From the NCBI GenBank assembly GCA_030614715.1, contig JAUWTM010000021.1, positions 1-36,419 of the forward strand: a stretch of 36,419 nucleotides of DNA, read 5' to 3'. The notes beneath the pieces are model-generated. The model worked only from the letters and a program-made list of their open reading frames with translations, was not told where the DNA came from and searched no databases. The translations under genes were made by a program, and so were the position numbers. The stretch comes from Planctomycetota bacterium. Its GTDB lineage: Bacteria; JAJVIF01; JAPKYR01. Below, in pieces: positions 982-3,179 of the stretch (position 1 is its first letter; each line of letters opens with the position of its first letter).

Positions 982-1018
982 TACTCGATCGATTTTTCAT
1001 GACGAATACACCCATATT

Positions 1019-1136
1019 CCCGTAGCACCGCATGGCAATGCGTCCAACCTCCACTTGCCCCAATCCCGTAGCATCGCATGGCAATGCGTCCAACCTCCAC
1101 GTACCCCAACCCCGTAGCACAGCACGGCAGTGCGTC
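1019..1136 (+). repeat. Left REP array, 3 copies, 46-bp period
   Basis: Three copies have GTAG boxes at 1022, 1068 and 1114, exactly 46 bp apart. Each has GTAG, then a small hairpin, then GTCC and a conserved spacer (AACCTCCAC...CCCCAA). Copies 1 and 2 form CGCAT-GGCA-ATGCG; copy 3 has GCAC-GGCA-GTGC and stops after its hairpin. GTAG directly 5' of a hairpin is the known recognition layout for REP-associated tyrosine transposases. The array lies just downstream of the RAYT gene. Confidence 0.8.
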
Positions 1137-1159
1137 TGATGTTTGGCTAATGCAAAGTG

Positions 1160-1726
1160 CTAAAAATTTACTGGATTCAACCGATCTTCCCACCAGCGCA
1201 TCGGATTTTCGATTATATAATTCCGTTTCGTCTCGAGGTCTTCCTTATCGCGAATTACGTGATCATTGTAATTATTCTGCCAGACCGTAGCCCCCGGTGT
1301 ACTCCTTAGATCATTGATCCGTCTGCTGACTGCTGCTTTGAAACCAGAGACAAATGTTGATAAGGACTTCGGGAGCCTGATGAGTTTAGATTTGCCAATC
1401 AGTACTGAGTTGTCCTTGCCACTGAGTTGCCTGTCCCAGAAGTAAAAATCATTTATGAAGATGATTCCATGCAGGTGATTCGGCATGATGATCCATTCGT
1501 CGAAGTCGATTTCCCTTCGTATATCTGCAGACTTCAACCACTCTTCCTTTGCGATTTCACCGAATTGATTCAAATACGTTATCCCACCGATTACCTCGCC
1601 GAAGATGCACTCTTTGTTTTCGGTGCAAATGGTGAAGAAGTAAGCACCAGGATGGGAATAGTCATGGTCTTTGAATCGGCGGGATTTTCGTCGAGTCAGG
1701 TATTTGTTGATTTCTTCCACGGACAT
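1160..1726 (-). CDS. REP-associated tyrosine transposase (RAYT, Y1/HUH family)
   Basis: A 188-aa single-strand DNA transposase of the Y1 (IS200-like, TnpA_REP) superfamily. Such enzymes cut and rejoin single-stranded REP DNA at a GTAG next to a hairpin. The N-terminus carries the family's RRKSxRxKxxDYSxPGAYFFTICT block (residues ~13-36) and IFGEV. The HUH metal site is in IMPNHLHGIIF (~80-91). Downstream are a FVSGFKAAVSRRIN helix (~126-139), VWQNNYNDHVIRD (~149-161) and a closing NYIIENPMRW (~169-178). Tyr residues in the last two blocks are candidates for the nucleophile; I cannot say which. I chose the ATG at 1724-1726 over the preceding in-frame GTG. Length is normal and no frameshift is seen, so it looks intact. 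REP-type arrays lie on both sides. Confidence 0.88.
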   Translation of the reverse strand: MSVEEINKYLTRRKSRRFKDHDYSHPGAYFFTICTENKECIFGEVIGGITYLNQFGEIAKEEWLKSADIRREIDFDEWIIMPNHLHGIIFINDFYFWDRQLSGKDNSVLIGKSKLIRLPKSLSTFVSGFKAAVSRRINDLRSTPGATVWQNNYNDHVIRDKEDLETKRNYIIENPMRWWEDRLNPVNF

Positions 1727-1806
1727 CACCGCTATCTATTGGTTAAACGGCTGGGAAATGTAAAAACTGAAAAAAAAATGGGGATATTTCGATTTTTTCT
1801 GGTGGG

Positions 1807-2018
1807 CTGGACGCACTGCCGTGCGGTGCTACGGGATTGGAGTAGATGGAGGTTGGACGCACTGCCGTGCTGTGCTACGGGGTTGGGGTAAATGGAGGGT
1901 GGACGCACTGCCGTGCTGTGCTACGGGGTTGGGGTACGTGGAGGGTGGACGCACTGCCGTGCTGTGCTACGGGGTTGGGGTACGTGGAGGTTGGACGCAC
2001 TGCCGTGCGGTGCTACGC
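1807..2018 (-). repeat. Right REP array, 5 copies, 46-bp period, inverted to the left array
   Basis: Five copies start (GGACGCACTGCC) at 1809, 1855, 1901, 1947 and 1993, all 46 bp apart. The GTAG boxes read on the minus strand (CTAC at 1829, 1875, 1921, 1967 and 2013). The hairpin is CGCAC-TGCC-GTGCG or GCAC-TGCC-GTGC. The spacers (GGGGTTGGGGTACGTGGAGG and variants) are themselves conserved, so this is a tandem array and not a CRISPR. It lies upstream of the RAYT gene, and its last copy runs into the kinase stop codon. Confidence 0.85.
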
Positions 2019-3179
2019 CTTGTGTTTATCCAGGATTTTGCTCTCTGAGAAATACTGCAGGTTTCCGCATACGTCGCAGACGAACAGCCTCGGATGGAAT
2101 TCCAACAATTCCTGGCTCCTGCTGCCGGGCCACATTGTCGACGTCGCTTCGTCGTCGAGTTCCTGGTAATAGCCGTCCTTGCAGAACGTGCACTGTGTAC
2201 CCCCGACAAGGTCGTCCTTCATCGTGTTCAGCAATTGGTCGATAGTCTGAACGCGTTCCACGACACTCGGTGTGAGGGTCTTGTCGAGGATCTTGTAGAC
2301 CGAATCCATCTGTTTCGACTTGGATGTCTTCCTGAGGTCCCATTCCTCCCGATGGTGCCAGTCGTGTGGTAATTGCTTTCCACCAGAGATCAGGTAGTAG
2401 AGCAGCTTTCCAAGTGAGTAGATATCGCTGGCTCCACAGACATCGCCTTCCTTGATCTGCATGACCGACAATTCCGGAGGCATGAAGAACTCAGTCGGGG
2501 CTTCAATGCCTGTGAGGTTGTGACGTCTTCCGTCTATGACGTGACAGATTCCGAAGTCGATGATTATTGGTGTCCCGTCGTCTTTGATCAGGATATTCTC
2601 GGGTTTCAGGTCACGGTGTATTATCCCCGCTTTGTGGGCTGTGTTCAGTGCGCTTGCGATTTCTACGATCAGTGCAAGTGCCTCGTGTTCATTGCCCTCG
2701 AAGACCTTCTCGAACTCCGCCTTGGTCTTGAGAGTGTGCCCTTCGATGAGTTCCATCACGTAAAACGGTGGATATGGTGGTTGCTTCTCCTCGCCATCCT
2801 CCTCTCCTTCCTCTTCCTCCCCGGATTCCGGAGCAGGCATCTCGGTCTTGTAGTCGAAGACCCTGATAATATGCGGATCGTCGAGATTCATGAGAGTCTG
2901 CGTCTCGGAACCGAATCTGCTCAGTGAATCGGGGGTTGGATTGTTCAGGAATTTCACCGCGTACTGCGGCTTTTTGAAAAGGAATTCGCATTCGTTGAGG
3001 AATCGTGAACGGGTCATGGGATTGACCCTGATTGTCTCCATCTTCAAGCCGGCCTTCCGCAGGTACTCCGAAAAGTCGTAGGATGACCAGACATCGCTCT
3101 CGCCACCTTCTTCATCGAGCTGCTCTTTGAGGATCCACCAGTTATTGATACCCTGGATTAACTGAGTTGCCTCGGGCAT
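2013..3179 (-). CDS. Hanks-type Ser/Thr protein kinase with C-terminal Cys4 motif
   Basis: A 388-aa soluble eukaryotic-like protein kinase. Visible features are a modified glycine loop (LDEEGGESDVW, ~21-31), the ATP-binding Lys in YAVKF (Lys76), Glu92, the catalytic loop HRDLKPEN (188-195), DFG (208-210), a PPEL activation-segment end (~234-237) and DIYSLG. About 45 residues lie between glycine loop and Lys76, more than usual, and an acidic Glu-rich stretch (~117-131) interrupts the N-lobe. No membrane segment or PASTA repeats follow. Instead the tail has CTFC (330-333) and CDVC (368-371), a likely zinc-ribbon. The start has a good GGGAGG ribosome-binding site about 8 nt upstream. It follows the VOC and propeller genes on the same strand after a 160-bp gap. 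The stop codon TAG is part of the GTAG of the outermost REP copy, so the original 3' end may have been altered by repeat insertion. Substrates are unknown. Confidence 0.85.
   Translation of the reverse strand: MPEATQLIQGINNWWILKEQLDEEGGESDVWSSYDFSEYLRKAGLKMETIRVNPMTRSRFLNECEFLFKKPQYAVKFLNNPTPDSLSRFGSETQTLMNLDDPHIIRVFDYKTEMPAPESGEEEEGEEDGEEKQPPYPPFYVMELIEGHTLKTKAEFEKVFEGNEHEALALIVEIASALNTAHKAGIIHRDLKPENILIKDDGTPIIIDFGICHVIDGRRHNLTGIEAPTEFFMPPELSVMQIKEGDVCGASDIYSLGKLLYYLISGGKQLPHDWHHREEWDLRKTSKSKQMDSVYKILDKTLTPSVVERVQTIDQLLNTMKDDLVGGTQCTFCKDGYYQELDDEATSTMWPGSRSQELLEFHPRLFVCDVCGNLQYFSESKILDKHKA

Follow-up and report, generated by a model that had tools for sequence, protein, structure and literature searches.

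The locus studied here raises the question of why a RAYT gene should lie between two arrays of GTAG-hairpin repeats that run head to tail and point away from it on either side, and how such arrays multiply. We analyzed a window of 36,419 nt, which corresponds to contig C41 in an assembly of 4.29 Mb (254 contigs, 87% complete). Searching the window with the REP pattern GTAGCANNGCAYGGCARTGCGTC and at most 3 mismatches, we found eight matches, three on the plus strand to the left and five on the minus strand to the right of the RAYT gene, while no match was observed across 100 dinucleotide-shuffled versions of the window. The step between neighboring units is exactly 46 bp in each arm, so that the 3 + 5 outward-facing GTAG-hairpin units with exact period, as given in a preliminary description of this DNA, were fully recovered by the pattern scan. 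Tandem Repeats Finder reports two arrays of period 46 and nothing else in the whole window: 1018-1136 with 2.6 copies and 89% matches, and 1800-2017 with 4.7 copies and 93% matches. The features of the locus are as follows.

1018..1136, plus strand: left head-to-tail array, period 46 (Tandem Repeats Finder)
1022..1044, plus strand: REP copy 1, left arm, outermost, GTAGCACCGCATGGCAATGCGTC (pattern match)
1068..1090, plus strand: REP copy 2, left arm (pattern match)
1114..1136, plus strand: REP copy 3, left arm, innermost, of the commonest genome-wide type GTAGCACAGCACGGCAGTGCG
1160..1729, minus strand: RAYT gene, encoding P0001 (189 aa)
1800..2017, minus strand: right head-to-tail array, period 46 (Tandem Repeats Finder)
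1810..1832, minus strand: REP copy, right arm, innermost (pattern match)
1856..1878, minus strand: REP copy, right arm (pattern match)
1902..1924, minus strand: REP copy, right arm (pattern match)
1948..1970, minus strand: REP copy, right arm (pattern match)
1994..2016, minus strand: REP copy, right arm, outermost, whose GTAG gives the TAG stop of the adjoining kinase ORF

The GTAG of the units lies outward on both flanks, with the RAYT gene between the inverted arms. Two units of the left arm carry the hairpin CGCAT-GGCA-ATGCG where other units carry GCAC-GGCA-GTGC; this change is two-sided, so the pairing of the stem is kept. With a 21-nt REP core the spacers between the units measure 25 bp, and the length of 20 bp given previously applies approximately to the longer unit used there but not to this core. 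The locus is flanked by a plus-strand ORF (22-981) and by a minus-strand protein-kinase ORF (2013-3179), the stop codon TAG of which, at 2013-2016, is provided by GTAG in the outermost REP of the right arm. The kinase orthologue in a genome of a sister genus (G001) is 45% identical and its C terminus is about 13 residues longer; the right array may have trimmed the kinase gene.

The protein P0001 matches the NCBIfam model NF047646 (REP-associated tyrosine transposase) with an E-value of 8e-19 and 68 bits, which lies below the curated cut-off of 80, and Pfam Y1_Tnp with an E-value of 0.00078 and 20 bits (cut-off 23). All 14 members of an alignment of P0001 and 13 relatives (alignment A1) match NF047646 at an E-value of 0.001 or better (best 9e-21), and the residues H85, H87, W150, Q151 and Y171 are invariant among them. 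H85 and H87 constitute the HUH motif. Y171 aligns without gaps, in a weak match (E 0.31), to residue 115 of the solved TnpAREP structure 4er8, which we take to be the catalytic Tyr, and it is probably the catalytic Tyr of P0001 as well.

From these features it is well supported that the locus is a REPtron, that is, a known kind of system, equipped with direct-repeat arms. As in other REPtrons, an HUH/Y1 gene lies between inverted GTAG-hairpin REPs and the REP is dispersed in the genome, but the flanks are head-to-tail 46-bp arrays where other REPtrons have single REPs, REP pairs or alternating BIMEs. According to the available text of the cited papers, each REP type generally has one RAYT (PMC2817692, PMC6006769), RAYTs are normally flanked by inverted REPs, and a third of the RAYTs described early lie in BIMEs, for which rolling-circle copying was proposed (PMC2817692). 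Work on P. fluorescens describes the REPIN as a replicating unit (Bertels and Rainey 2011, PMC3116915) and reports ordered REPIN clusters adjoining RAYTs, which are either tandem whole REPINs with flanks or GI/GIII REP arrays spaced 112 and 72 bp (PMC3116915). The basic unit in our genome resembles these REPINs in being an inverted REP doublet with GTAG outside, but here the arms are multiplied in direct orientation. The contrast to known RAYTs drawn in the preliminary description therefore holds for the direct-repeat arms, which are the unusual part and occur on both sides of the RAYT gene and at many other loci; it does not hold for the inverted flanks, which are standard, nor for repeat clusters as such, since BIMEs and REPIN clusters are known (PMC2817692, PMC3116915). 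In the openly available literature that we searched, a RAYT enclosed by two such arrays, head to tail and inverted to each other, was not found to be described; many subscription papers lie outside this scope.

If the RAYT acts on these repeats, copies away from the locus, in head-to-tail multiples and with GTAG-hairpin boundaries, are to be expected, as already pointed out in the preliminary description, and such copies are indeed present. Using GTAGCANNGCANGGCANTGCGTC with at most 3 mismatches we found 110 matches in the 4.29-Mb assembly, 55 on each strand, compared to a single match for the reversed pattern. For closer analysis 41 stretches were taken around the listed matches (about 100 of the 110 were listed; two further match lists were covered fully) and rescanned together with the window. 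REP copies were accepted with at most 4 mismatches, and opposite-strand matches within 12 bp of a better match were dropped as palindrome echoes; a copy at L051 6042 (5 mismatches) and a stray match at L055 579 (4 mismatches) were also dropped before counting. This resulted in 111 REP copies in 49 clusters (gap limit 300 bp, 700 bp in the window), 29 of which contain at least two copies. The genomic copies keep their GTAG-hairpin boundaries, and head-to-tail neighbors at 45-49 bp were observed in 15 stretches besides the window. As the REP occurs genome-wide, with GTAG-hairpin ends and head to tail elsewhere, RAYT-driven dispersal is the natural reading.

Next to their number, the arrangement of the copies is highly regular. 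Within clusters, plus-strand copies always precede minus-strand copies with GTAG outside: we counted 22 junctions of the order '+-' and none of the order '-+', the latter being absent in all 29 multi-copy clusters. Because the '-+' order is absent within clusters, alternating BIMEs were rejected as a description of them. At any distance the stretches analyzed contain four '-+' neighbors, at 305 (C62), 3279, 3470 and 3910 bp. Same-orientation neighbors make up 40 of the 62 neighbor pairs, and 34 of these 40 are spaced 45-49 bp, 28 of them beyond the window; in the available text of an earlier study, by contrast, head-to-tail (HT) dimers of GTAG REPs are reported to be rare (Di Nocera 2013, PMC3733652). 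From the '+-' polarity with GTAG outside we infer that the clusters with both orientations are REPINs whose arms are extended head to tail. Fourteen clusters combine both orientations and have at least three copies. Their arms are never equal, but in 11 of them the copy number is odd, so that equality is impossible. Examples of uneven REPINs are C6 with four plus and one minus copies, C97 with one plus and four minus copies and C170 with two plus and three minus copies. Unequal arms suggest that the two arms grow separately. We also considered whether the arms arose mainly by nesting of whole REPINs in REPINs and rejected this, since the arms would then stay equal; the case rests on the three even-numbered clusters among the 14, all of which have unequal arms, and on 5 of the 14 in which the arms differ by at least two units, although loss of single REPs could imitate part of the inequality. 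Both C84 and C227 end in arrays with an identical spacer and may be one locus split by the assembly; they were counted as two in the cluster tally, and the pair was excluded from the between-locus spacer test described below. In the outer flanks of some arrays (L047 2272 and 4482, L085 8499) what remains of another, degenerate unit (its tail) is found at the same distance. Given these degenerate outer units and the many copies near contig ends, the numbers of copies and the lengths of arrays reported here are minimum values.

The sequences between the units give further insight into how the arrays were formed. Spacer cores have a mean similarity of 0.76 within loci (32 pairs) and of 0.46 between loci (525 pairs). 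After deduplication, the mean between loci is 0.43 versus 0.33 for shuffled spacers, a value reached in none of 200 shuffles. Likewise, 36 between-locus pairs score at least 0.7, where the shuffles give 0.3 on average and none of 200 reaches 36, although many of these pairs are non-independent, as one array gives several near-identical spacers. Spacers common to distant loci are shared by the window with C97 and by C6 with C170 and C38. The match of spacers within a locus indicates that array growth is local, while the sharing between loci points to an occasional transfer of REP-spacer-REP pieces. A REPIN center common to C67, C84, C179 and C195 (pairwise scores of 0.53-0.77, calculated without a shuffle control) fits what is expected for moving REPINs. 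With respect to length, 19 of the 22 distinct spacers have 24-28 bp; all 22 start with T, mostly TC, and most finish with CC or CCC. The G content of the spacer cores is only 7.3%, compared to 15.2% in the outer and 20.3% in the inner flanks. The regular period with spacers might also suggest a CRISPR-like array, or an unrelated repeat array that came to lie beside a transposase by chance. We rejected the CRISPR-like array, since the spacers recur within arrays instead of being unique, and together with the inverted layout, the dispersed copies and the position of the RAYT gene between the arms this leaves the whole alternative a negligible probability.

Taken together, we hold with good confidence that the locus is a REPtron whose REP spreads as REPINs, most likely by means of the RAYT, and that the arms of these REPINs then grow head to tail. 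The first steps can be proposed from what is reported for the family: in the available text, TnpAREP binds and cuts single-stranded REP, GTAG helps to choose the cut for one group 3 member, and for the E. coli enzyme both cleavage and recombination of REPs have been observed in vitro, while the multiplication of REPs is described as poorly understood (PMC8266576). By analogy, the RAYT, as an HUH/Y1 single-strand endonuclease, would recognize the single-stranded GTAG-hairpin and cut and rejoin the REP; this cleavage, and a dependence of dispersal on the RAYT, are likely from the family. Several observations, detailed above and below, speak against strong claims here: the arrays fold no better than shuffled sequences, the commonest REP type has an imperfect stem, no cut site stands out, two assemblies have the REP while an orthologue of the RAYT was not found in them, and the '-+' pair on C62 lies just past the 300-bp cluster limit. 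For the most part the REP would spread in the form of REPINs, its inverted pairs with outward GTAG. The arms of the REPINs, including the two around the RAYT gene, would lengthen head to tail by one REP plus about 25 bp at a time, with the growth being local and the two arms lengthening separately, and short REP-spacer-REP pieces would sometimes move, or be copied, between loci. The idea of a 'self-amplifying element' in the preliminary description is thus supported for the repeats (REPs and REPINs with their arms), which multiply, but not supported for the RAYT gene, of whose type we found one copy in the 87% complete assembly.

The 46-bp step itself could come from strand slippage, from REPs that exchange unequally, or from a REP-spacer circle that is cut by the RAYT and copied in rolling-circle mode. 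It is quite possible, if somewhat short of probable, that the RAYT disperses the REPINs and that the head-to-tail arms arise without it, by slippage or unequal recombination as in minisatellites. The high spacer similarity within loci is what unequal exchange at REPs would give, and the arms that differ by two or more units are in line with it as well. However, slippage and unequal exchange need a first head-to-tail pair, and they leave unexplained why unlike spacers have a like distance; the narrow length range of the distinct spacers suggests that the spacing was set before amplification, and spacer cores that are poor in G compared to the outer flanks and that share their ends are unlike random flanks. 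Both the growth of the arms and the equal spacing would be explained if the RAYT measured the step or if a REP-spacer circle were copied in rolling-circle mode. That the step of about 46 bp is set by the RAYT, which would either cut beside one REP and join the strand to a target at a constant distance from a REP already in place, or copy a 46-nt REP-spacer circle, in constant polarity, nevertheless seems doubtful to us and is put forward as a minor possibility. If it were true, REPINs would become polarised multi-arm elements, and REPs would have, beside REPIN dispersal, another way of multiplying that works in direct orientation. For the REPtron with growing REPIN arms, narrow steps and spacers that record the shared descent of the copies amount to a readable history, here in a REPtron and REPIN family from a little-sampled lineage, and lead to the prediction that the arms grow in units of about 46 bp and depend on the RAYT in doing so.

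The two arms could also be regarded as long terminal inverted repeats, which would make the whole 1-kb unit an autonomous transposon. When the left arm is compared to the reverse-complemented right arm, 105 of 115 positions are identical in the outer-end register, which is similar to a TIR, and 101 and 99 positions are identical in registers shifted by 46 and 92. GTAG is found at both ends, and the right end abuts and terminates the kinase frame, where the orthologue mentioned above is longer. However, the assembly holds a single RAYT copy of this type, no close RAYT was found among 98 genomes searched (best 49% identity), and no syntenic relative lacking the unit was found; for an empty-site comparison the class offered a single kinase orthologue at E 1e-40 (G001:C319), and this one lies beside other genes. 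Hence we consider a transposon of this kind very improbable.

We also analyzed the genes around the clusters, because the arrays could be intergenic elements kept by the host, for example at mRNA ends or for DNA topology, with their number under host selection. By rough ORF calls, the genes flanking the 49 clusters are convergent in 13, co-directional in 17 and divergent in 2 cases, with one side missing in 12, and 5 of the 49 clusters lie inside a predicted ORF of at least 120 aa according to simple ORF calls. The excess of convergent over divergent neighbors, and the position of the window arrays between convergent ORFs, would suit such a role, but selection against damage to promoters would produce this bias as well. 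Single-stranded DNA folds of the two arrays are no stronger than those of shuffled sequences (z = -0.53 and -1.11). A terminator scan of 980-2060 gave no site in the arrays and one terminator-like site inside the RAYT ORF, with 1.2 expected, and a promoter scan of the same region found none, with 1.4 expected in shuffles; in Rfam the window has no match at gathering scores. A host-kept element is therefore improbable as an explanation, and dispersal as REPINs by the RAYT remains the preferred reading.

In order to compare the locus with its relatives, we searched for proteins similar to P0001. Relatives with 32-49% identity occur in 16 other genomes among the 98 searched. A scan of named genomes with P0001 alone found no relative, while a scan with alignment A1 yielded relatives scattered across many phyla (best 80 of 548). 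We surveyed 108 RAYT loci, namely 28 of the 29 loci from the 98-genome search (L102 was left out) and the best 80 of the 548. REP-containing tandem arrays within 1.5 kb were observed at 11 of these 108 loci, though contig ends truncate some of the loci and diverged arrays escape Tandem Repeats Finder. Arrays of a single orientation with periods of 30-59 bp lie on one side only at L090, L186, L099, L213, L244 and L245, of which L186 has the array of L090 on a contig of equal length and is probably a duplicate of it, and L227 has a single-orientation row with a 200-bp period that takes in gene sequence. Single-orientation arrays on both sides of the RAYT gene were found by Tandem Repeats Finder at none of the 108 loci. 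At L115:1316-2174 we observed a RAYT gene with three REPs per side, all on one strand (direct flanks), an arrangement that Tandem Repeats Finder had missed. At L171:1-350 a 135-bp tandem repeat (2.6 copies) covers a REP together with the first part of the RAYT gene, the 5' end of which is thereby itself repeated.

A GT(A/G)G hairpin with a stem of at least 6 bp lies within the RAYT gene at 79 of the 108 loci (examples are L088:1754-1781, L089:1733-1761, L096:1774-1802 and L103:1768-1795). As a control we used the 57 named-genome loci with full flanks, where such hairpins were present in 42 genes, in 3 control stretches of the same loci and in 2 codon-shuffled genes. REPs inside the RAYT gene predominate in TnpAREP subclass 2.4, although the available text does not state this for every member (PMC6006769). 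The relatives of P0001 resemble this subclass in being spread over many phyla and in their frequent in-gene hairpins, whereas P0001 itself has no REP insert in its gene according to alignment A1. Unlike in many relatives, e.g. L088, the REP belonging to P0001 is not of the double-foot type.

The REP itself is restricted in its distribution: allowing 1 mismatch, it is present in 3 of the 98 genomes searched, all of one family, with 72 matches in the source genome, 30 in G001 and 38 in G002. The commonest REP of G001 and G002, which are sister-genus assemblies, differs by one base (GTAGAAC for GTAGCAC). The stretches fetched from them contain 72 REP copies, whose neighbors within 300 bp comprise 28 of the order '+-', none of the order '-+' and 4 of the same orientation. 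All four of the latter belong to G002, three at 45 bp and one at 209 bp. As the sister assemblies mostly have plain inverted pairs, the inverted pair is likely the older form and the head-to-tail arms are probably an expansion mostly in the source genome. An orthologue of the RAYT was found neither in G001 nor in G002 (best E 5e-4 and 0.08; the assemblies are 92% and 82% complete), which argues against a strict need for this particular RAYT or else reflects assembly gaps. Persistence or spread of the REP without this RAYT is thus possible. Of the three assemblies, the RAYT was found in one, the source genome, which also has the most head-to-tail arms.

Other sources of the repeat were considered as well. 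A viral origin was rejected, because a 24-nt core of the REP has no exact match in viral contigs. We likewise rejected another Y1 gene of the same genome as its partner, since none of 9 scanned Y1 loci carries this REP with at most 5 mismatches (a tenth place was left out). The Y1 genes at L005, L008 and L044 are near their own, different GT(A/G)G hairpins, and the genome thus seems to hold several REP families.

Finally, we examined the variation among the 111 REP copies. The commonest subtype (A), GTAGCACAGCACGGCAGTGCG, accounts for 63 copies and has a shorter, weaker and imperfect stem. The second subtype (B), GTAGCG(A/G)CGCATGGCAATGCG, accounts for 17 copies and has a stem of 8-9 bp at the GTAG. 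No cut site stands out near the REP: CT at positions 7-8 past the core is present in 24 of 99 distinct 3' flanks. In several variants GTAG is replaced by GTAC (L069:2055-2120, L051:6042 and 6109, L063:2059 and L082:2041), two of them within a head-to-tail array; in the available text, GTAC in place of GTAG changed the cut site of a Marinomonas RAYT substrate in vitro (PMC8266576). At L051:2033, L073:2059 and L065:2071, REPs of subtype B continue into (T/C)CGCAGTGCGT, a tail similar to the 3' half of subtype A; it looks as though B had taken the place of the stem inside an A copy.
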